A stretch of DNA of 20,627 nt, from positions 1 through 20,627 of IMG/VR virus record IMGVR_UViG_3300043409_000414. The stretch is one strand, 5' to 3'. A model generated the notes under the pieces. The model worked only from the letters and a program-made list of their open reading frames with translations, was not told the DNA's origin and ran no database searches. Positions 3,354 through 12,551 of the stretch are shown piece after piece. The translations under genes were made by a program, and so were the position numbers. How positions within the stretch are numbered: the first letter of the stretch is position 1; each line of letters begins with the position of its first letter. The DNA comes from a virus.

Positions 3354-4337
3354 ATGACGAAAATTGAAATAGTTAGACCGTATCTTGAGAAATTTCCTGA
3401 TCACGGTGATTTGACATTGGCTAAACTGATTTACAATAAAAATCCATTAGCATTTATAAATGTAGAAAATTGCAGAGACGCAGTTAGAAGGATGAGAGGG
3501 CATAAAGGGGCAACGGCAAAAGACAAATCTTTTTTTAAGCCAATCACACACGACACCAATCCCTACAAACTCCCTGACAGCGAAGAAAAAATTAGAGAGC
3601 CGTTTATCCTTCCGAAGGCTTGTAATAACATATTATTAATTTCTGATCTACATATACCATATCACTCTATTGATGCTATTACGGCGGCTCTAAACTACGG
3701 TAAAAAGGAAGGAATTAATACCGTTGTTATTAATGGGGATTTAATAGACTTCTACGGTTGCTCTCGGTTTGAAAAAGATCCGAGAAAGCGATCTGTAAAA
3801 TTTGAGTTTGATAGTACAAAGGCTTTTTTAGTTGCCTTGCGTAAAACATTCCCAAATGCTCAAATCTACTGGTTAAAAGGGAATCACGATGTGAGGTACG
3901 AACATTACCTGATGGCTAAAGCTCCTGAGATATTTGATGACCCTTATTTTGCAATGGAGGAACGCCTAAGGCTAAACGAGGAGCAAATACACTTAATTGG
4001 TGACAAGACATTGGTAAAAGCAGGGAAGCTATTTATACATCATGGACACTTGTTTTTTAGGGGGTTTATCGCTCCTGTAAATTCTGCAAGGGGATTGTTT
4101 TTGAGAGCCAAACAAAGCATGATTTGCGGTCACGTGCATAAAATTAGTGAACATACCGAAACTAACCTTAACGGCGAGTTAATAACTTGTTGGAGTACAG
4201 GTTCGCTTTGCGAGTTGTCGCCCGATTATGCGCCATACGCTACAAATTACGCTCATGGGTTTGCGCACATTGAAACAGAAGATAATGGCAACTACAGCGT
4301 ACACAATTACCGAATATACAAAGGCAAGATATTATAA
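3354..4337 (+). CDS. Calcineurin-like metallophosphoesterase
   Basis: A 327-residue protein carrying the complete metallophosphoesterase motif set: SDLH (97-100), GDLID (128-132), GNHD (176-179), IHHGH (228-232) and GHVH (259-262), the ligands of a di-metal phosphoesterase site. The first ~90 residues form an extra N-terminal part with a helical basic stretch (ENCRDAVRRMRGHKG) that may bind nucleic acid or a partner (inference). Substrate cannot be told from motifs; relatives act on phosphodiesters in nucleic acids or nucleotides. It lies between the lysis block and the minus-strand operon. Unlike many phage copies it is not next to polymerase or ligase genes. Confidence 0.88.
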   Translation: MTKIEIVRPYLEKFPDHGDLTLAKLIYNKNPLAFINVENCRDAVRRMRGHKGATAKDKSFFKPITHDTNPYKLPDSEEKIREPFILPKACNNILLISDLHIPYHSIDAITAALNYGKKEGINTVVINGDLIDFYGCSRFEKDPRKRSVKFEFDSTKAFLVALRKTFPNAQIYWLKGNHDVRYEHYLMAKAPEIFDDPYFAMEERLRLNEEQIHLIGDKTLVKAGKLFIHHGHLFFRGFIAPVNSARGLFLRAKQSMICGHVHKISEHTETNLNGELITCWSTGSLCELSPDYAPYATNYAHGFAHIETEDNGNYSVHNYRIYKGKIL

Positions 4338-4490
4338 ATGAAAAATGATACGAAGATGCAGATAGAGCAGTTAATGAATGAGAAACTACGCAAGGAAGTC
4401 GAACTTGAGGAGATTAAAAAAAAACTTCGTCAATTAATACTAAACACAAAATCATTTCGCATTTCGCAAAATGAAAAGGTAAAGCAATAA
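4338..4490 (+). CDS. 50-residue charged coiled-coil protein
   Basis: ATG at 4338 immediately follows the phosphoesterase TAA (no gap), and the frame ends with TAA at 4488-4490. The product is very rich in Lys, Glu, Gln and Leu (QIEQLMNEKLRKEVELEEI region) and predicts as one long amphipathic helix or coiled coil with a basic tail. No family recognised. The zero spacing suggests co-translation with the phosphoesterase, so it might be a partner or regulator. It is the last plus-strand gene before the convergent minus-strand operon. Confidence 0.6.
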   Translation: MKNDTKMQIEQLMNEKLRKEVELEEIKKKLRQLILNTKSFRISQNEKVKQ

Positions 4491-4516
4491 CTTTACTTAT
4501 TACTAACAACGTAAAG
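4478..4516. terminator. Possible hairpin between convergent transcription units
   Basis: GTAAAG (4479-4484) can pair with CTTTAC (4491-4496) across a 6-nt loop. The same CTTTAC can instead pair with GTAAAG at 4511-4516. The site lies where the plus-strand block ends (4490) and just past the end of the minus-strand operon (4536). Stems are only 6 bp and AT-rich, with no long U tract, so a bidirectional terminator is only a suggestion. Confidence 0.3.
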
Positions 4517-4535
4517 CTATCGCTTACCTATCAAA

Positions 4536-4664
4536 TCACCACAGCCAAACAATTAGAAAGATAAGTGCGAAACCAATAATGGAACTAATAAGCAATCCTT
4601 TGGGGTCTATTTCAATTGGCTCAAAATGATCATAGTCGGGGTCTTGATCGTGGTGCGGTTTCAT
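4536..4664 (-). CDS. 42-residue minus-strand tail-anchored membrane micro-protein
   Basis: The minus-strand ATG (4664-4662) overlaps the TGA of the upstream 126-residue gene (ATGA), and the frame closes with TGA at 4538-4536. The N-terminal half is acidic and His-rich (MKPHHDQDPDYDHFEPIEID). The C-terminal half is one strong membrane span (GLLISSIIGFALIFLIVWLW) ending at the stop, a tail-anchored layout. The 4-nt coupling, the biased composition and its place in a gene chain make it convincing despite its size. Function unknown; an inner-membrane role such as lysis control or exclusion is possible. Confidence 0.62.
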   Translation of the reverse strand: MKPHHDQDPDYDHFEPIEIDPKGLLISSIIGFALIFLIVWLW

Positions 4665-5041
4665 AAGAATTTCTTATTTAACTCGTAAAACTCTTGTGTT
4701 TGGTCTATTGCTAAACTTTCGTTAATGCCTGTTGACTGTTGAAGCAATTCTGAGGCAATAATTGGAAGCCATGCTTTGCGGTTGTCGTGAATGTACTTTG
4801 CTTCTTTTTCAGCAATGATAGCAATGTTTTGTATTAGCATTAGCTTCTTTAGCACCGTTGCAAGTTGCTTGGACTTTTTATCTCGCCAGGCGTTGTCTTT
4901 GTCGCCTCCAATAACATCTACAATAAATAAGGCAGTTTTACTGTCAATAGCTTTTTTCAGCCATTGCGTTAACACTACGGCGTCACGAATTTTGTCGTGA
5001 TGGTTGCTGAATAGTTTTTTAATAAAGTTTAGGATTTTCAT
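4661..5041 (-). CDS. Minus-strand protein of unknown function (126 aa)
   Basis: The largest member of the minus-strand operon. The N-terminus is basic (MKILNFIKKLFSNHHDKIRD) and could be an amphipathic membrane-contacting helix. A middle segment (WLKKAIDSKTALFIVDVIGGDKDNAWRD) followed by a helical LATVLKKLMLIQNIAII is loosely reminiscent of small Bacteroidota phage proteins found near holins; that is from memory and weak. The C-terminal part is helical and mixed-charge. No catalytic motif is seen. It overlaps both neighbours by 4 nt (ATGA), so expression is tightly coupled. The plus-strand frame open across 4791-5000 is a shadow. Confidence 0.78.
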   Translation of the reverse strand: MKILNFIKKLFSNHHDKIRDAVVLTQWLKKAIDSKTALFIVDVIGGDKDNAWRDKKSKQLATVLKKLMLIQNIAIIAEKEAKYIHDNRKAWLPIIASELLQQSTGINESLAIDQTQEFYELNKKFL

Positions 5042-5181
5042 GCTGTTTTCTTTTTAGATTGTTTGTGAATGTATTGATACCATGTGTTAATTTTTAAAGG
5101 TTTTGGCTCTATTAAGGCTTGTCGGTACGATACCTTTTCGCCTGTAGGGAGAACGGAATGGGTGACTGATAGGTTTTTCAT
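5038..5181 (-). CDS. 47-residue minus-strand basic protein
   Basis: The minus-strand ATG at 5181-5179 lies 2 nt after the stop of the 58-residue gene upstream, and the TGA at 5040-5038 overlaps the next ATG (ATGA). The product starts MKNLSVTHSVLPTGEKVSYR and ends in a Lys-rich tail (HKQSKKKTA), with no hydrophobic span. It fills exactly the only gap in the minus-strand gene chain, the main reason to accept it. No family recognised. A basic 47-residue protein could bind nucleic acid or a host protein, but nothing in the sequence proves this. Confidence 0.6.
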   Translation of the reverse strand: MKNLSVTHSVLPTGEKVSYRQALIEPKPLKINTWYQYIHKQSKKKTA

Positions 5182-5183
5182 AA

Positions 5184-5360
5184 TTATAAACGGGTTATTG
5201 ATTTAATGTTGTCTAACTCAATTTCAAAGTACTCATCTCCAAAGTCTGCTATTATAGCATAACTTAGAAAGCATGCTTTAAAGCATTCAACAAACATACA
5301 CTCTTGCTCTAAGCCATGCTGTGTAATTGTTTGGGGTCGGTGGAAGGTTATTTTTATCAT
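5184..5360 (-). CDS. 58-residue minus-strand protein, first gene of the operon
   Basis: The start chosen is the ATG at 5360-5358 (MIKITFHRPQTITQHG). The frame continues to an ATG at 5399, but that would cover the divergent promoter region and adds a Tyr/Ile-rich leader that looks non-coding. The product is small and acidic at the C-terminus (DFGDEYFEIELDNIKSI), with two Cys in CMFVECFKAC-like context and a hydrophobic middle. No family recognised. A TAnnTTTG-type box on the minus strand (5371-5364, TACTTTTG) lies 3 nt before this start, so the message may be almost leaderless. Confidence 0.62.
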   Translation of the reverse strand: MIKITFHRPQTITQHGLEQECMFVECFKACFLSYAIIADFGDEYFEIELDNIKSITRL

Positions 5361-5418
5361 ATTCAAAAGTATAACTTTATTTTGATAAATGTATAACAAA
5401 TTTATTTATCTTTGCTTT
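5361..5418. promoter_or_regulatory. Divergent promoter/operator region
   Basis: This 58-bp gap separates the minus-strand operon from the plus-strand gene at 5419. Plus strand: TATCTTTG (5407-5414) matches the Bacteroidota TAnnTTTG box, with a TTG at 5382-5384, 22 nt upstream, within the looser range described for the flavobacterial -33 element. Minus strand: TACTTTTG (5371-5364) fits TAnnTTTG but lacks a well-spaced TTG. The heptamer GTATAAC occurs directly repeated at 5369-5375 and 5391-5397, 22 bp apart (about two helical turns), and AAAGTATAACTTT (5366-5378) has dyad symmetry. These are plausible operators for the product of the adjacent gene at 5419 (inference). Confidence 0.55.
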
Positions 5419-5595
5419 ATGAAAAAACAACAAAAACAAATGGGGCGCCCCGAAAAATACGGTGAAGCTACCAAAATTCTTGCTATTAGAGTTCCTGAAA
5501 GTAGGTATGCACATTATCGTAAAGTGTTCAAAAACGTGTTAGATTCTGGAGAAGGTATTAATGTAACAACAATATTACATTCAAGTAATACATAA
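5419..5595 (+). CDS. Small putative DNA-binding protein (GRP motif, RHH-like), possible regulator
   Basis: The start is the ATG at 5419 (MKKQQKQMGRPEKYGEATKI); the frame opens at 5389, but the promoter box at 5407-5414 makes the shorter form right. The basic N-terminus with GRPEKYG resembles an AT-hook/GRP element common at the head of small phage and plasmid DNA-binding proteins. ILAIRVPESRYAHYRKVFKNVL (about 20-41) looks like the strand-then-helix of a ribbon-helix-helix fold, though the C-terminal part is short. It lies next to the divergent region with repeated GTATAAC sites, suggesting a repressor of one or both promoters. Function is inferred, not proven by motif. Confidence 0.62.
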   Translation: MKKQQKQMGRPEKYGEATKILAIRVPESRYAHYRKVFKNVLDSGEGINVTTILHSSNT

Positions 5596-5900: not shown

Positions 5901-6012
5901 AGCATTCCACAGTTCCGCAAGTTTGCGGGATTTGCCACCCCAACCCCAACGCTTTTCGAGGCTTGGGGATTTGGCAGTATAAAACAATGGTGTTTTATAA
6001 AACTTGCAACCG
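5901..6012 (+). ncRNA. Structured non-coding segment with three hairpins (possible leader RNA, small RNA or terminator)
   Basis: Three inverted repeats lie in a row. (a) TTCCGCA (5913-5919) pairs with TGCGGGA (5924-5930), 7 bp with one G-U and a 4-nt loop. (b) CCCCAA (5944-5949) pairs with TTGGGG (5963-5968), extended outward by TGCCA/TGGCA (5933-5937 with 5972-5976) across internal loops. (c) Perfect 9-nt arms TATAAAACA (5978-5986) and TGTTTTATA (5991-5999) flank a 4-nt loop. The middle part is clearly more GC-rich than its surroundings. No reading frame explains it. Hairpin (a) could end the upstream gene; hairpin (c) ends 13 nt before the ATG at 6013 and could affect its translation. No known RNA family recognised. 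Confidence 0.45.
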
Positions 6013-6279
6013 ATGACCTACGAAATTAAAAAAACACATGACTACTCACCTTCACACGACAGGGTGATTGAATCTGGCTTAACTTATAACGAAGCCGTTG
6101 AAGCCTTAGAAATTGAAGCAATATTAGTCCGCGCAAACGGTGGATCAGTAATACACCACAACCAGGACGAGTTGATATGGGAGGAAGCCGACGGTAGTGA
6201 AATATACACTTATACTATTTACGAACAAGAACAAGACTTTGAAGGCGAAGGACAAGATCCAGAATATTACGAAAACTAA
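6013..6279 (+). CDS. Small acidic protein of unknown function (88 aa)
   Basis: Start at ATG 6013 (MTYEIKKTHDYSPSHDRV). An in-frame TTG at 6004 adds three residues and lies closer to the hairpin; it is less likely. The product is strongly acidic, with a C-terminal tail rich in Glu, Asp, Gln, Gly and Tyr (EQEQDFEGEGQDPEYYEN). A middle helix (YNEAVEALEIEAILVRANGG) is followed by a strand-like GSVIHHNQDELIW. No family recognised. Highly acidic small early phage proteins are sometimes DNA mimics, but nothing here proves that. Its message carries the structured leader just upstream. Confidence 0.7.
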   Translation: MTYEIKKTHDYSPSHDRVIESGLTYNEAVEALEIEAILVRANGGSVIHHNQDELIWEEADGSEIYTYTIYEQEQDFEGEGQDPEYYEN

Positions 6280-6299
6280 AACTATAAAACCCTACAAAA

Positions 6300-6494
6300 A
6301 TGACAAAAGAGCAAAATTACATCCGCACTATTACCGACGAGATTAATCGTGATTTATCTACTATGCCAGAGGAGTATCAAAAAGGATTCCGTAGAGCAAT
6401 GCAGCACTCACTAAACTTATTTCAGATTTGGTTTCCTGAAGAAGAAGCTACCGAGATAGAAAACAGATGGGCAAAAAACACTTTTAAATCTTAA
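6300..6494 (+). CDS. Small helical protein of unknown function (64 aa)
   Basis: ATG at 6300 follows an A-rich leader 20 nt after the preceding stop. The product is helical with mixed charge (MTKEQNYIRTITDEINRDL) and an aromatic patch (NLFQIWFPEEEATEIENRW). No motif or family recognised. It ends 4 nt before the annealing protein gene, so it probably belongs to the same early operon and may be a recombination accessory, by position only. Confidence 0.7.
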   Translation: MTKEQNYIRTITDEINRDLSTMPEEYQKGFRRAMQHSLNLFQIWFPEEEATEIENRWAKNTFKS

Positions 6495-6498
6495 GGCG

Positions 6499-7011
6499 AT
6501 GTCAAAACCAAACCTACCAGCAATTATCAAAGAACTTGGAATCGCCGTAAAAGTTGATAACTTTAACTCCATCCTTAACCAAGCGCCGCCGAAGTCGTGG
6601 ATAAAGCTTAATAAAGGCATCGAGTACCAGCCAATTTCGAGAGTCAAAAACTCGCTGATGACTATCTTTCAAGACTATGACTGGGCGATTAAAGACGTGC
6701 GCATCGTAGCTAATTCGATACTTTGTTATGGAACGCTTACAGTTATTAACCCGATCACAGGCAGAGCCTCAAGTAAAGACGGTGTTGGCGCAGTGCCGGT
6801 CCAATTAAAATCAGGATCTAAAACAATGGACATCGAAAACATTATACACGATGCGATCCAAAAAAACGCGCCATCTGCCGAAAGCTTTGCTTTTAAAAAC
6901 GCAGCGGCAAAATTCGGTAAGTTGTTTAGCAACGGTAAATCAGAAGTAGAATTTGAGCCAGTGTTTAGCCGCGAAGTACCAATTAACGAAATTAAAGCTT
7001 CACAACAATGA
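6499..7011 (+). CDS. Rad52-like single-strand annealing protein (phage recombinase)
   Basis: The 170-residue product resembles phage Rad52/ERF-type annealing proteins. After an N-terminal helix it has YQPISRVKNSLMTIFQDYDW (43-62), a beta segment (VRIVANSILCYGTLTVINP), then KDGVGAVPV (93-101) and a late helix SFAFKNAAAKFGKLF (129-143). The DGVG turn and the A..FG..L helix recur in the Rad52 superfamily. Such proteins coat single strands and anneal complements. The partner exonuclease follows with a 4-nt ATGA overlap, and an SSB-like protein follows that, so the three-gene order backs the call. Exact subfamily (Rad52 or ERF) is uncertain. Confidence 0.75.
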   Translation: MSKPNLPAIIKELGIAVKVDNFNSILNQAPPKSWIKLNKGIEYQPISRVKNSLMTIFQDYDWAIKDVRIVANSILCYGTLTVINPITGRASSKDGVGAVPVQLKSGSKTMDIENIIHDAIQKNAPSAESFAFKNAAAKFGKLFSNGKSEVEFEPVFSREVPINEIKASQQ

Positions 7012-7664
7012 TAATTACAGGAATACAAAACGAAAACCAACGCAACGACGAATGGTTTAAATCTCGCATGGGCCGTTTCTCATGCAGTCAATTATATCGC
7101 CTAATGACTGAGCCGAAAAGCAAAGCAGACAAGGAAGCAGGTAATTTATCAGAAGGCGCTAACACTTATGTAATGGAGTGCATCGCCGAAAAGATTACAG
7201 GACTACCCGCTAAAGAGGACTTTACGTCTAAGTACACAGAGTGGGGAATAGAGAATGAGCCGATAGCTATTGGTATCTACGATGAACTGCAAAACGTAAA
7301 GACATTACAAGAAGGCTACATCCCTTATGGTGACAACTTCGGAGGATCGCCAGACGGCTTAATAGAAGCCGTAGGAGGCATTGAAATTAAGTGCCCTTAC
7401 ACTATCACCAATCATTTAAATCATATCCTTAGCGAGGACCTAAAGGGCGATTGCAAAGAATATTACTGGCAGATGATTGGATACCTATTAATTACAGGGC
7501 GCGAGTGGTGGGATTTTGTATCTTACCACCCTAATTATCCAGGCAAATATCAGTTCCACCGTAAAAGGCTTTTAAGAACCGACGTGCAAGAAGATATACA
7601 ACTTGCAGAAACAAAAATCACACAAGCAACAGAAAAATTAAATTTAATATTAAAATCAATCTAA
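7008..7664 (+). CDS. YqaJ/lambda-exonuclease-type viral recombination nuclease
   Basis: The 218-residue protein carries the PD-(D/E)XK motifs of the YqaJ family: RFSCSQLYRLMT near the N-terminus (23-34), WGIENEPIAI (79-88, Glu82/Glu84), GGSPDGLI (112-119, Asp116), GIEIKCP (124-130, Glu126-x-Lys128) and QMIGYLLITG (155-164). Lambda exonuclease relatives chew 5' strands from duplex ends and hand the 3' strand to an annealing protein, here the gene immediately upstream. Length is normal and all catalytic positions are present. Its stop overlaps the SSB-like gene by 1 nt (TAATG), so the cassette is translated as a unit. Confidence 0.9.
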   Translation: MIITGIQNENQRNDEWFKSRMGRFSCSQLYRLMTEPKSKADKEAGNLSEGANTYVMECIAEKITGLPAKEDFTSKYTEWGIENEPIAIGIYDELQNVKTLQEGYIPYGDNFGGSPDGLIEAVGGIEIKCPYTITNHLNHILSEDLKGDCKEYYWQMIGYLLITGREWWDFVSYHPNYPGKYQFHRKRLLRTDVQEDIQLAETKITQATEKLNLILKSI

Positions 7665-7954
7665 TGGCAAACAAACCAATGAAAGGAAGCATCTGCTTAA
7701 CAGACTTAGGCGATGCGTACAAAGCAAAACACTCAGCATTTAACGTATCAGAAAAGAACGGCAAAATATACGCTAACATCGCAGTATGGATGAATGATGA
7801 ACCGGACCAATATGGCAACGTATTATCCTTCCAGCTGCAAAGCAAAAAGGATGCAACCGACGCGAAAACGTACTTCGGCAACGCTAAAATATCTGATGGC
7901 GCAACGCCAGTAAAAGCTGAAGTAATTAAGGACGATGATAATATGCCGTTTTAG
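7664..7954 (+). CDS. Probable phage single-strand DNA-binding protein (SSB-like acidic tail)
   Basis: A 96-residue protein whose last residues, IKDDDNMPF, copy the acidic-then-Pro-Phe C-terminal tail of bacterial SSB (E. coli SSB ends in DDDIPF), the hook that recruits repair and replication proteins. The rest (GKIYANIAVWMNDEPDQYG, VLSFQLQSK) is strand-rich and could form one OB fold, but it is shorter than typical SSB and I cannot match the core to the family by eye. It directly follows the annealing protein and exonuclease genes, the usual place for a phage SSB. The call rests on tail plus context. Confidence 0.72.
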   Translation: MANKPMKGSICLTDLGDAYKAKHSAFNVSEKNGKIYANIAVWMNDEPDQYGNVLSFQLQSKKDATDAKTYFGNAKISDGATPVKAEVIKDDDNMPF

Positions 7955-7956
7955 TT

Positions 7957-8310
7957 ATGATAAGCACCTACGCAGCACCCGGAATACCGAACTTTGAGCG
8001 CATCGCTAAATCCGATCAAAAAGAAACAGAGTTTAAAAAAGCCTATCAAATTATATTTATAATTGCTAATCGCTACGGCGTAAAAGAAAAGGATTTAGTA
8101 AGCAAAAAGCGCGATAAAGAAATAATGAAAGCGCGACATATTGCTATAAATCTTATCCGGTCCGCAACTTTGCTTAGATTAGTTGATATTGGCAAGATTT
8201 TTAATCGAGATCATTCGACAGTTATTCACAGCCTTTTTGCCCTTAATAATTGGATAGACACAGATAAATCTTTTGCGCGTGAGTACAAAGCGACAAAGTT
8301 ATTAGTATGA
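7957..8310 (+). CDS. DnaA domain IV-like DNA-binding protein
   Basis: The 117-residue product matches the DNA-binding end of DnaA (Bac_DnaA_C): KARHIAINLIRSAT (58-71), LVDIGKIFNRDHSTVIHS (75-92) with the DHSTVIH signature (85-91), and a closing helix. The AAA+ ATPase part of DnaA is absent and there is no room for it, so this is a free-standing domain. In DnaA the DHSTV segment reads the DnaA box. Here it may bind the phage origin, divert host initiation, or regulate transcription. An iteron cluster lies ~4.5 kb downstream. Starts 2 nt after the previous stop; overlaps the next ATG by 4 nt. Confidence 0.85.
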   Translation: MISTYAAPGIPNFERIAKSDQKETEFKKAYQIIFIIANRYGVKEKDLVSKKRDKEIMKARHIAINLIRSATLLRLVDIGKIFNRDHSTVIHSLFALNNWIDTDKSFAREYKATKLLV

Positions 8311-8489
8311 AAAAGAAAATAGCTTTAGACGCCGAACATGGCTTCGTTGGTGTACAGAAAGCAAAGTCAAAGCCAAAGCCATACATCGAAGCCGAGTGGA
8401 TTAAGGAATACCGCAAAGAGCGTGACCGAGTAATTTGGAAACTGCACCCGGAATCAAGACAAGAAATAGAGGATAAATATAACTTATGA
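8307..8489 (+). CDS. Small basic protein of unknown function (60 aa)
   Basis: The gene sits between two ATGA overlaps: its ATG overlaps the DnaA-like stop, and its stop overlaps the methyltransferase ATG. The product is Lys-rich (QKAKSKPKPYIEAEWIKEY) with a helical, charged C-terminus (HPESRQEIEDKYNL). No domain recognised. Overlaps on both sides make it almost certainly translated. A link to DNA binding or methylation is possible from position and charge only. Confidence 0.75.
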   Translation: MKKKIALDAEHGFVGVQKAKSKPKPYIEAEWIKEYRKERDRVIWKLHPESRQEIEDKYNL

Positions 8490-9940
8490 ACGTATTATCA
8501 TTATTTGATGGAATGTCATGCGGTCAACAAGCATTAGAACGTTCTGGAATACAAGTAGATAATTACTTTGCTTCTGAAATTGACAAATATGCTATTAAAG
8601 TTACAATGGCTAATTACCCAAATACCATACAATTGGGAAGCGTTGTTAATGTTAATGCTTTAAATCTGCCTAAGATTGATTTATTAATAGGTGGCAGTCC
8701 TTGTCAGTCATTCAGCTTTGCAGGTAAACGTAAAGGAATGGCTACTAAATGCGAAACAGAGATTTTGACGTTAAATCACTATCTGGAACTAAAAGCAGAT
8801 GGTTATGAGTTTGAAGGACAGTCTTATTTATTTTGGGAGTTTATGAGGCTGTTAAATGAATGTAAACCTAAATACTTTTTATTAGAAAATGTGGAAATGG
8901 GTGAAAAATGGGAAAAGGTATTAAGCAAAGCAATCGGAGTAAATGGCATCCACATTAACTCGGCTTTGCTATCTGCTCAGAATAGAAAGCGTATTTATTG
9001 GACTAATATTGGTATGGAGTCGGCTGGATTATTCGGCTACCCGGTAAGCATCATTGATAAACCAAAGGATAAAAAAATATTACTTAAAGATGTATTGGAA
9101 AGTGACGTAGATAAGAAGTATTTTTTAAAAGAAACATCATTTATTTTTGATAGGATAAAAACAAATCATCAATTTACTCCTAATATTCCAAACAAAAATG
9201 AAAAATCAAATTGTCTAAAAATTGGCGGTAAGGGAGTTGATGATTTAGTAAAAATAGATAGGCAGGGCAATGTTAAAAATAATCAAGATAAAGCATCTTC
9301 ATTAAGCGTTGGAGGTCATGGTCATGGCAATCATTCAGATATGGATTTAATAGTACACAACATGATGCCTAGAAGTGGTGATCCTAAAAAAGGAGGCACA
9401 GGACATTTAAGCAGAACAGATGGCAAAACCTATTGCTTAGATACTGGAAATACTAATGCGGTAGAATTTGGGTGTATAAAATTTGGTAGGACATACGAGG
9501 CTAAAGAAATAAGAAAAGAAAGTATGAAAAATGGAAAGGATTATACACCATATCAATCTAAAGAAATTACAAATATTGATTACGAAAAAATGAACACATT
9601 AACAACTGTTGGAAGTAAAGACAATTTAATAATTTCTGGAACATTAAGAACACACAATGATGGTAAAGGATTTAGAGAAGTAATGAGCGGTAAAGGCGCA
9701 AAAATACCTGCAAGGTCAAGAGAAGATGGAAGCGGTCAAAATATAGTTTCTATATCAGGAAACATCCGCCGCCTAACTCCTTTAGAATGTGAACGCCTAC
9801 AAACAGTAAAAGATAACTACACAAACCATGTAAGCGATAGCCAGAGATATAAAATGCTTGGCAATGGATGGACAGTAGATGTAATTGCACATATATTTAA
9901 ATACATAGATTATGGAATCACAAGAAAGCTATCTACTTAG
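8486..9940 (+). CDS. DNA (cytosine-5) methyltransferase with long, module-like target recognition region
   Basis: A 484-residue protein with the C5 methyltransferase motifs in order: LSLFDGMSCG (4-13, motif I, SAM binding), GGSPCQSFSFAG (69-80, motif IV, nucleophile Cys73), LLENVE (132-137, motif VI), SAQNRKRIYW (163-172, motif VIII) and KMLGNGWTVDVIAHIF (456-471, motifs IX-X). Between ~210 and 425 is a long target-recognition region with recurring short units (NCLKIGG..DDLV; SSLSVGG..DMDLI; YCLDTGN; NTLTTVGSKDNLI). Tandem modules of this sort are known in multispecific phage enzymes. It would mark phage DNA against host restriction. No cognate restriction enzyme recognised; the gene downstream is a VRR-NUC nuclease, more likely for replication or repair. 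Confidence 0.93.
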   Translation: MNVLSLFDGMSCGQQALERSGIQVDNYFASEIDKYAIKVTMANYPNTIQLGSVVNVNALNLPKIDLLIGGSPCQSFSFAGKRKGMATKCETEILTLNHYLELKADGYEFEGQSYLFWEFMRLLNECKPKYFLLENVEMGEKWEKVLSKAIGVNGIHINSALLSAQNRKRIYWTNIGMESAGLFGYPVSIIDKPKDKKILLKDVLESDVDKKYFLKETSFIFDRIKTNHQFTPNIPNKNEKSNCLKIGGKGVDDLVKIDRQGNVKNNQDKASSLSVGGHGHGNHSDMDLIVHNMMPRSGDPKKGGTGHLSRTDGKTYCLDTGNTNAVEFGCIKFGRTYEAKEIRKESMKNGKDYTPYQSKEITNIDYEKMNTLTTVGSKDNLIISGTLRTHNDGKGFREVMSGKGAKIPARSREDGSGQNIVSISGNIRRLTPLECERLQTVKDNYTNHVSDSQRYKMLGNGWTVDVIAHIFKYIDYGITRKLST

Positions 9941-10343
9941 AGCAATGGGTCAATTTAAGAGCGCAAAAACGCCAAAGATTGTTAAACATGCAACTAAAGT
10001 GACCGAATGGCAAGAACAACTTGCGTTTTGCAAATGGCTTAAAAACACGCACCCGGATATTCTATTTCGCTCAGACATTCAATCTGCCGGGAAGCTATCA
10101 GGCGCAATGCAGAACATAAAGCAGATAATAGATCCTTATTCTGGATTTCCAGACATTACGATTTACAGTCTAAACTTAATGATTGAACTTAAGTCGATGA
10201 CAGCGGCGCTATCTGGTGAGCATTACCGCAACCAAGTAGCAATGCACGACAGACTTAAATCATTAGGATGGCGCGTTTATGTTTGCAGAGGTGCGGAAGA
10301 AGCAAAAGAAGTTTTTAAACAACATTACAATAAACTATATTAG
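9912..10343 (+). CDS. VRR-NUC domain nuclease
   Basis: The 143-residue product fits the VRR-NUC branch of PD-(D/E)XK nucleases: TEWQEQLAFCKWLK (31-44), SGFPDITIY (77-85, Asp81), LMIELKS (89-95, Glu92-x-Lys94), YRNQVAMHDRLKSLGW (105-120, Gln108) and VYVCRGAEEA. Phage members are small stand-alone domains tied to replication or recombination intermediates. The ATG at 9912 overlaps the methyltransferase end by 29 nt; an alternative ATG at 9945, after its stop, removes 11 residues and keeps the domain whole, so the start is uncertain. Confidence 0.88.
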   Translation: MESQESYLLRAMGQFKSAKTPKIVKHATKVTEWQEQLAFCKWLKNTHPDILFRSDIQSAGKLSGAMQNIKQIIDPYSGFPDITIYSLNLMIELKSMTAALSGEHYRNQVAMHDRLKSLGWRVYVCRGAEEAKEVFKQHYNKLY

Positions 10344-10347
10344 CTTT

Positions 10348-10506
10348 ATGAAAAAAGAGATAACAATCAATCCCGAAAAAACCTACACCAAAACCGAGTA
10401 CGCAAAGGCGTTCCAGATTAGTCGACCAACAATTGACAAACAGATTGAGAACAAAGACCTAAAGATTATAGAGGTCAATGGCGTTACTTTAATAGTTGGC
10501 AAATAA
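10348..10506 (+). CDS. Small helix-turn-helix DNA-binding protein
   Basis: Start at ATG 10348, 4 nt after the nuclease stop; the frame opens earlier only inside that gene. The 52-residue product is mostly one helix-turn-helix: YTKTEYAKAFQISRPTIDKQIENKDLKII (13-41) is the AlpA/MerR-like helix, turn, recognition-helix pattern, followed by a strand (VNGVTLIVGK) that may form the wing. It may regulate the early operon or the primase gene; a 17-bp palindrome between it and the primase start is a candidate site (inference). Confidence 0.75.
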   Translation: MKKEITINPEKTYTKTEYAKAFQISRPTIDKQIENKDLKIIEVNGVTLIVGK

Positions 10507-10520
10507 TTTCACCACCTAAC

Positions 10521-10537
10521 TTTTACAAATTGTAAAA
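10521..10537. promoter_or_regulatory. Palindrome upstream of the primase gene (operator candidate)
   Basis: TTTTACAA and TTGTAAAA are perfect 8-nt inverted arms around a single A. The site ends 1 nt before the primase ATG at 10539, so a bound protein would block translation or transcription start, or the RNA hairpin could mask the start codon. The adjacent HTH protein is a candidate ligand. Confidence 0.4.
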
Positions 10538-10538
10538 T

Positions 10539-12551
10539 ATGATTAAAGACCCTATTATTTCCTATTTTAATAACGTCGCGCACGTTAAGAACGGTATGAG
10601 CCTTACCTTTTCTGAATTCTTAGATAAAGTTAAGGAAGGCTATTGGCAGGACGCGGTCCTAAAGTATCGCAACGATATGACCGCCGCAAACAAAAAAGCC
10701 CTTCCATACGTAACGATTTCAGGATTGTTTAAAGAGCGCAATACCGAAAGTATTACGACTCACTCAGGTTATATTGCTATTGATATCGACGGTATAAAGA
10801 ACCTTAACGACGTGCGCGCTCAGCTTTGCTGCGATCCTAACTTTTACGCAGTATTTGTAAGCTGTGGCGGTGCTGGACTTTGCGCCATTGCTCAGATAGA
10901 ACCCAAGCTACATTTAGAAAGCTTTAACTATCTATCTAAATACCTATATGAGAAATATGGAATTATAGAAGTCGATGAGAAATGCAAGGATATTTCGCGC
11001 GCTCGCTTTGTATCTTATGACCCGGACCTATTTATAAACAAGGACGCAATACAGATAAAAGTAAAGCCATACCAAAAAAAGAAATACGAGCAGAAAAGCT
11101 ATGTTTTTGTTGAAAGTGAGTTTAGCAACATCGTCAAGTCAATAGTTGCCGAAGGTAAAGACGTTACCGAAGATTATGGCGATTGGATAAACATTGGCTT
11201 TGCCTTAGCCGGTAAGTTTGGCGAAGATGGGCGCGATTACTTCCACGCAATAAGCGCAATCAATCCAACATATAACCAGCTTAAATGTGATAAGAAATAC
11301 ACCCACTTACTTCAGACTAAGCGCGAGCCGACAATATCAATAGACTTGATATACAACCTTGCAAAAAAGCAAAATATAGAAGTAAAAGCAATAGACGAAA
11401 AAAACATCGTAAACCAAATTAAAGGTTTTATCAGCAAGAACTATAAAATGTCACGAAATGAGATAAGCCGTAACATTGAGATAAACAAAACGCCGATAAG
11501 TGATATAGACTTAAATTCAATATTTGTTAACTGCAAAACCTTTATTGACAAATCAACTAAGGACCTGGTCCGTAGCGTTATTTTCTCGGAGTTTACGCCG
11601 TCTTATAATCCTTTTCATGAGTTTCTTAAAGATCACCAACACCGTAAGCCAACCGGTAACATCGATAAGCTTATAAAGTCAATAACAACCGATACGCTTA
11701 ATCATGGCTTATTTATTACTAAATGGCTATGCTCGCTAATGGCTTCGATAAACGGCAAACATTCGCCACTTGTGTTAGTGCTAATTGGTGGACAAAACAC
11801 AGGTAAAACAGAATGGTTTAGGCGTTTGCTTCCCGATAAACTCAAAGCGTATTACGCCGAAGATAAACTTGATCAGGGCAAAGACTCTGATATACTAATG
11901 ACTAAGAAGCTTATAATAATGGATGACGAAATGGGCGGAAAGTCTAAAGCCGAAAGCAAAATGCTTAATCGTTTAACTTCATCGCAGACGTTTTCAATAC
12001 GTGAGCCTTATGGTATAGTTTCAGTCGACCTAAATAGATTAGCTATGCTTTGCGGAACGACTAACCTTGAAGGCGTACTAAACGATCCAACAGGCAACCG
12101 ACGGATATTACCTATTCGCGTGCTATCTATAGACTTTGAGTTGTACAACTCGATTAACAAGGATGACTTGTTTTACGAGATTTATCACCGTTATAACAAT
12201 GATCAGAACGGCTATTTGCTTACAGGTGACGAGATTAAAACTTTAAACTCATCTACGTCGGAGTTTGAAGCAGTATCGCCAGAACAAGACATGATACTAA
12301 AATACTTCCGCGTACCGGGCGACTTTGAGCCGTTCCGATACGTTACAACTACCGAGATAATGAGCGTAGTTAAAATGGGTTCACAGGTCACGCTATCGCT
12401 TGTAATGATAGGCCTACGAATGAAAAAGTTAGGCTTTAACAAGGTATCAACTCGAATAGACGGTACGCCGACTGGCGTTTGGGCTGTAGTTGACTTTCAA
12501 AACTTGACTACAAACTTGACTACAGAAAATAATGCGTCTACGCCATTTTAA
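10539..12551 (+). CDS. VirE/BT4734-type primase-helicase
   Basis: A 670-residue fusion. The N-terminal part matches the BT4734-like/primase-type domain: HSGYIAIDIDG (75-85, acidic pair Asp82/Asp84), VFVSCGGAGLCAIAQI (105-120) and KDISRARFVSYD (150-161). A central segment (~195-275) with DWINIGFALAG resembles a primase C-terminal linker domain. The C-terminal half is the virulence-associated E type P-loop ATPase: Walker A GGQNTGKT (417-424), Walker B LIIMDDE (458-464), then RLTSSQTFSIREPYG and NRRILPIRV. Such proteins prime and unwind DNA at phage origins. The last ~25 codons carry copies of the iteron motif, so the gene end is also part of the putative origin. The ATG follows a 17-bp palindrome. 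Confidence 0.88.
   Translation: MIKDPIISYFNNVAHVKNGMSLTFSEFLDKVKEGYWQDAVLKYRNDMTAANKKALPYVTISGLFKERNTESITTHSGYIAIDIDGIKNLNDVRAQLCCDPNFYAVFVSCGGAGLCAIAQIEPKLHLESFNYLSKYLYEKYGIIEVDEKCKDISRARFVSYDPDLFINKDAIQIKVKPYQKKKYEQKSYVFVESEFSNIVKSIVAEGKDVTEDYGDWINIGFALAGKFGEDGRDYFHAISAINPTYNQLKCDKKYTHLLQTKREPTISIDLIYNLAKKQNIEVKAIDEKNIVNQIKGFISKNYKMSRNEISRNIEINKTPISDIDLNSIFVNCKTFIDKSTKDLVRSVIFSEFTPSYNPFHEFLKDHQHRKPTGNIDKLIKSITTDTLNHGLFITKWLCSLMASINGKHSPLVLVLIGGQNTGKTEWFRRLLPDKLKAYYAEDKLDQGKDSDILMTKKLIIMDDEMGGKSKAESKMLNRLTSSQTFSIREPYGIVSVDLNRLAMLCGTTNLEGVLNDPTGNRRILPIRVLSIDFELYNSINKDDLFYEIYHRYNNDQNGYLLTGDEIKTLNSSTSEFEAVSPEQDMILKYFRVPGDFEPFRYVTTTEIMSVVKMGSQVTLSLVMIGLRMKKLGFNKVSTRIDGTPTGVWAVVDFQNLTTNLTTENNASTPF

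Follow-up and report, generated by a model that had tools for sequence, protein, structure and literature searches.

The stretch of DNA analysed here (the window, 20,627 bases) is a complete IMG/VR record and represents a portion of the genome of a tailed phage, namely an uncultivated Bacteroidota phage. The genes for terminase, portal, head morphogenesis, primase-helicase, YqaJ exonuclease, DNA methyltransferase, endolysin and metallophosphoesterase are all located on the plus strand. A block of four open frames extends on the minus strand from 5360 to 4536, flanked by the phosphoesterase gene and p50 on one side and by early genes starting from 5419 on the other (Table 1). An earlier note had pointed to these four frames as the sole minus-strand block, which holds for convincing genes, as the remaining long minus-strand ORFs of the window are antisense to strong plus-strand genes. 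All four frames are present with the coordinates and lengths the note had assigned, as are the spacings, i.e. a gap of 2 nt between m58 and m47 and ATGA overlaps at 5038-5041 (m47/m126) and 4661-4664 (m126/m42). All four frames start with ATG, and three of the four starts carry an A at position -3, which is a favourable start context in Bacteroidota (PMC6847099).

Table 1. Features of the minus-strand block and its borders in the window.
Feature	Position	Strand	Basis
p50, small gene after the phosphoesterase gene	4338-4490	+	ORF
Hairpin between convergent p50 and m42	4477-4529		arms 4477-4496 and 4511-4529
m42, 42 aa, ATGA overlap with m126	4536-4664	-	hydropathy; no sequence relative
m126, 126 aa, basic, ATGA overlap with m47	4661-5041	-	one remote relative
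m47, 47 aa, diverged short member of the 'YPDGR...NKWI.YIH' family	5038-5181	-	profile match
m58, operon gene 1, 58 aa	5184-5360	-	ORF; no relative
Bacteroidota-type promoter motif TTTG-N22-TATCTTTG of the divergent plus-strand gene	5381-5414	+	pattern match
Candidate promoter of the minus-strand operon	5397-5430	-	-7 element TAAATTTG (5404-5397) by pattern match
Divergent gene p58, MGRPEKYG...	5440-5595 (start 5440 or 5419)	+	ORF

The precision of the spacing, which had been claimed to be hard to reach by chance, was assessed with 5000 dinucleotide-preserving shuffles of the region 4491-5418, in which ORFs of at least 40 aa starting from any ATG were chained when separated by gaps of -4 to +4. 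The observed chain comprises four genes. None of the shuffles exceeded a two-gene chain, which was reached in 38 of the 5000, and the maximum in the rest of the window's minus strand was one. Codon usage, as trained on the large genes of the phage, weakly favoured the annotated own-strand frame for all four genes; for m42, one frame on the opposite strand scored slightly above the annotated one. Scans of the four proteins against Pfam, NCBIfam and PADLOC returned nothing above threshold and no library family describes any of them, in line with the claim that no member belongs to a recognised family. The data support the view that the four frames form one operon of genes that most callers would miss, as the earlier note had held: the frames behave as one unit, and m47 is additionally backed by homology.

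This homology was detected with a profile of 20 homologues comprising long and short forms but not m47 itself. The profile retrieved m47 at E 2.1e-8 (28.7 bits), with an alignment over profile positions 1-49 that begins at Met1, while the next best ORF of the window scored 0.11. Therefore, m47 is a real gene with a correctly placed start. Smith-Waterman comparison of m47 with the 79-aa protein of relatives yielded a score of 67, as compared to a shuffle mean of 22, and none of 5000 shuffles scored as high. Members of the family have 45-95 aa and are present in more than 40 phage contigs. In IMG/VR, 30 contigs carry the long form, which is followed in 23 of them by a gene for a 30-43-aa single-helix membrane protein at a 4-nt overlap; the next gene encodes a 57-aa coiled-coil-like protein in two further contigs and a 151-aa protein in one, and is lacking in four. 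A search with the phosphoesterase also yielded phages in which the family is represented by short forms (45-48 aa), e.g. MKSICRTVYPDGRVNEYENGAIIKINSAPNTKEFNKWINYIHKNK. Elsewhere, the family is mostly encoded on the plus strand directly upstream of Rad52/ERF recombinase genes. This arrangement, which describes where the gene usually lies and is no trait of the protein itself, is not found in the window, since m47 resides on the minus strand and the recombinase gene p170 on the plus strand. Assignment of p170 as Rad52/ERF-like is our reading of its sequence, as the PHROGs match is to an unknown family only. The window is not the only case of a strand switch: in L064, the entire early region (6130-10875; ERF-like, SSB-like and m47 homologue) is in minus-strand orientation with respect to the phosphoesterase gene, unlike in the other relatives.

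None of the libraries searched describes the m47 family, which is one more family of unknown function. A profile search against the PDB found nothing, a Pfam scan of 17 members gave scattered sub-threshold matches only, and no significant match was obtained among annotated phages. The AlphaFold model (pLDDT 60, pTM 0.34) was too poor for a fold search. Nor did any of 394 other sampled genomes of the L058 phylum contain a member, which suggests that these phages seldom persist as prophages.

The remaining products of the block are less tractable. The last one had been described as an acidic, tail-anchored membrane protein, and indeed m42 has an N-terminus that is acidic and, towards its C-terminus, a single hydrophobic stretch with a mean Kyte-Doolittle value of 2.62 over residues 23-41. 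No sequence relative of m42 was found, including among 80 related loci. It was not among the matches of a profile of the small membrane partner of the m47 family, and its pairwise score fell within the range of shuffles. In its layout m42 resembles many of these partners, i.e. it has one C-terminal helix, an acidic start and coupling through ATGA, albeit to m126 and not directly to m47. The pair formed in relatives by the 'YPDGR' protein and a 30-43-aa membrane protein, which precedes Rad52/ERF and YqaJ on the plus strand, thus has one clear counterpart in the window, m47 being a member of the first family; the window genes differ from this pair in that they reside on the opposite strand and in that m126 sits between m47 and m42. 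Because m42 is without sequence match to the membrane proteins of relatives, a partnership of m47 and m42 is proposed from gene order and architecture only.

For m126, one relative was identified on the minus strand of contig L052 (2-382; pairwise BLASTP E 6e-6). The Smith-Waterman score was 65 and the maximum in 5000 shuffles 58. The relative is part of another set of minus-strand genes, again located upstream of the recombinase gene p170. Of note, L052 begins with ~100 bases that repeat the sequence around 1940-2010 in inverted orientation. This probably reflects an artefact of assembly, and for this reason only residues 1-80 of the relative were trusted. A match of m126 to phrog_2653, a family of unknown function, is weak (14.3 bits, E 9e-4 in the 20.6-kb record), runs past the start codon and was not returned by a PHROGs scan of m126. 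When phrog_2653 was searched in 24 related records, 42 genomes of one order and 395 genomes of the phylum, only L052 was found; as the control gave no match in the stricter runs, this outcome carries little weight. No relative of m126 was detected in 395 genomes of one bacterial phylum, and peptide patterns of m126 and m58 retrieved none from IMG/VR. The AlphaFold model of m126 is all-helical, of low confidence (pLDDT 45) and too poor for a fold search. No family match was obtained for m58, and no relative was found in IMG/VR or among the 80 related loci. The 48-aa and 73-aa early genes of relatives were considered as candidates and rejected, as sequence comparison showed them to be unrelated to m58.

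The block is bordered by putative transcription signals. The hairpin downstream of m42 has a predicted folding energy of -25.5 kcal/mol (z -6.0) on the minus strand, where it is followed by a T-rich stretch, and of -14.5 kcal/mol (z -4.9) on the plus strand. It is the probable terminator of the minus-strand operon. On the other side, the TATCTTTG and TAAATTTG elements of the two divergent promoter motifs fit the Bacteroidota -7 consensus TANNTTTG (PMC6847099). The -33 element of the minus-strand promoter is a weak TTG near 5430-5428, which was read from the sequence by eye. A second minus-strand motif, TACTTTTG at 5371-5364, is a less likely promoter, because transcripts would start inside the m58 start codon. 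The plus- and minus-strand motifs in the interval 5361-5418 would overlap, an arrangement that suggests that the operon may be switched either against or together with the early genes. No family above threshold and no relative was found for the divergent gene p58; judging from the style of its sequence and its position, we guess that it may encode a DNA-binding regulator. Further downstream, a structured element at 5903-6003 (read on the plus strand) precedes the plus-strand early operon and is conserved within otherwise diverged sequence. It recurs at L038 2110, L050 3833, L041 4035, L020 4090, L006 6565, L058 4525 and L053 100, and its hairpins show compensatory changes in 9 of 20 predicted pairs. 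It has no match in Rfam and is a candidate for a new phage leader RNA.

Relatives of the window were gathered through the phosphoesterase (73% protein identity). They have in common the phosphoesterase gene and p50 on the left side and, in contigs that extend far enough, the Rad52/ERF-like protein and YqaJ on the right, whereas the interval in between differs. Their plus-strand early operon just before the Rad52/ERF-like protein has the order 48 aa, 73 aa, 79 aa and 43 aa; that of the window itself lacks a member of the m47 family. Ten contigs (L002, L003, L004, L008, L017, L020, L041, L047, L050, L058) carry on the minus strand of the same slot a 50-aa ribbon-helix-helix-like gene, an assignment that is weak (Pfam RHH_3 at 0.087). 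In nine of the ten, this leader is followed by one to five more small genes, within 8 nt or at ATGA overlaps. The cargo varies among the ten contigs: a PAPS-reductase-like protein with a match to SspD (6e-26) in L008 (1085-1837, minus strand), RHS-repeat proteins in L058, and membrane proteins and unknowns elsewhere. Since ten relatives hold different minus-strand genes at this site, we regard it as a variable slot for accessory genes. The operon of the window occupies it with small coupled genes on the minus strand, between the phosphoesterase gene and p50 and the early operon. Apart from L002, the operons of these contigs resemble it in slot, strand, short genes and gaps of a few nucleotides or ATGA overlaps; they differ by their cargo and by the leader, for which a profile search gave no significant match in the window. 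As the window lacks this first gene, equivalence of the operons is positional only. In three phages with short forms of the m47 family (L068, L073, L078) no convincing minus-strand operon was found in the slot. L058, a phage contig that was assigned to a MAG carrying the label Chitinophaga pinensis, encodes two adjacent small proteins with RHS/YD repeats (3475-4259, minus strand), a similar one being present in L047; its phosphoesterase frame (1577-1876) retains about 50 conserved residues and then diverges.

Variable slots of small genes are well known in phages, and morons and exchangeable early host-takeover genes have been described in lambdoid and T4-like phages. Like these, the genes of the window operon are small, variable and non-structural and occupy a fixed slot next to conserved ones. 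In the strict sense a moron has its own promoter and terminator within an otherwise late region, while the promoter of the window operon is a prediction. We consider it about an even bet (probability roughly 0.5) that the block is a genuine accessory operon, probably expressed early, of host-interaction genes, into which m47 was relocated from the early region. Transcription would proceed leftward from a promoter near 5395 to the hairpin terminator, and the close and ATGA junctions would couple the translation of the four small proteins. The operon would fill the variable slot that separates the metallophosphoesterase gene and p50 from the early (recombination) operon of the plus strand. Judging from other exchangeable early genes of phages, its most likely role is host interaction, with small proteins that would alter the host or shield the infection. 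m47 would keep the activity of its counterparts on the plus strand, which are usually co-translated with a very small membrane protein, and the part of that partner would fall to m42. The frames, their coupling, the family of m47 and the differing cargo of relatives are established; promoter use, early timing, the pairing of m47 with m42 and the role towards the host are inferred. Counting against this reading, m58 has no relative, the minus-strand -33 element is poor, the leader gene is absent and m42 does not match the partner family. No literature specific to this operon was found.

Several other readings have to be weighed. The block may be an inverted piece of the early operon, comprising m47 and perhaps m42, which gained m126 and m58 and has no added function or is decaying. 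The plus-strand location ahead of the recombinase gene that nearly all contigs show for the family, its absence from the window's own plus-strand early operon and the strand switch in L064 are compatible with this idea. However, none of the four frames is broken and their coupling is tight, and as forms of 45-48 aa are normal in other phages, m47 is not a visibly truncated remnant; we regard this reading as rather unlikely. That the four frames are merely chance ORFs would agree with the lack of homologues for two of them and with the weak codon-usage signal, but is extremely improbable given a chain that no shuffle reproduced, and it was rejected for m47, whose homologues share the same start. 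A lysis-related operon with m42 as a holin- or pinholin-like protein is very improbable. m42 has the single hydrophobic helix and the endolysin gene (2530-2997) is only ~1.5 kb away, but the latter has plus-strand neighbours of its own, among them a 67-aa frame (2322-2525) that weakly matches holins, and relatives of m47 and of the small membrane partner adjoin recombination rather than lysis genes.

The earlier note had also proposed that small minus-strand operons of this kind often carry lysogeny, superinfection exclusion, defence or anti-defence functions. Variable accessory cargo is indeed carried by such operons in the slot of relatives, and exclusion, defence and anti-defence have the standing of guesses, but a role in lysogeny is unlikely, because no tyrosine integrase (PF00589) was found in 13 viral records, i.e. 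the window and 12 related records of 12-34 kb, which are fragments, and because the m47 family is missing from the 394 other bacterial genomes sampled. The same two findings weigh on superinfection exclusion or immunity, in which m42 would block DNA entry of related phages with the help of m126 and m47, expressed while the lytic genes are off. Divergent orientation with overlapping promoter motifs, a small membrane protein and exchangeable cargo would suit such a role, and superinfection exclusion of the T4 Imm type does employ a small membrane protein. Yet m42 has no sequence match to Imm, its role in exclusion being a proposal, none of the four proteins matches any known exclusion family and no repressor is recognisable, leaving this reading clearly unlikely. 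Small overlapping genes would also suit a toxin-antitoxin or defence cassette, and the SspD-like protein of L008 occupies the same slot; the four proteins themselves are without match above threshold in PADLOC, Pfam or NCBIfam, and we judge this possibility improbable. Finally, we put forward with considerable doubt that the m47 family and the tiny membrane proteins form an early complex at the membrane that assists phages of Bacteroidota in recombination or takeover, of which the window operon would be a strand-switched version with m126 as an extra subunit.

Taken together, the m47 family constitutes an unannotated microprotein family beside recombination genes in many related phage contigs, and very short overlapping frames of phages can be confirmed by homology even when the libraries hold no name for them. 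A fixed slot in which small accessory genes are swapped is a good hunting ground for host-takeover or counter-defence proteins.
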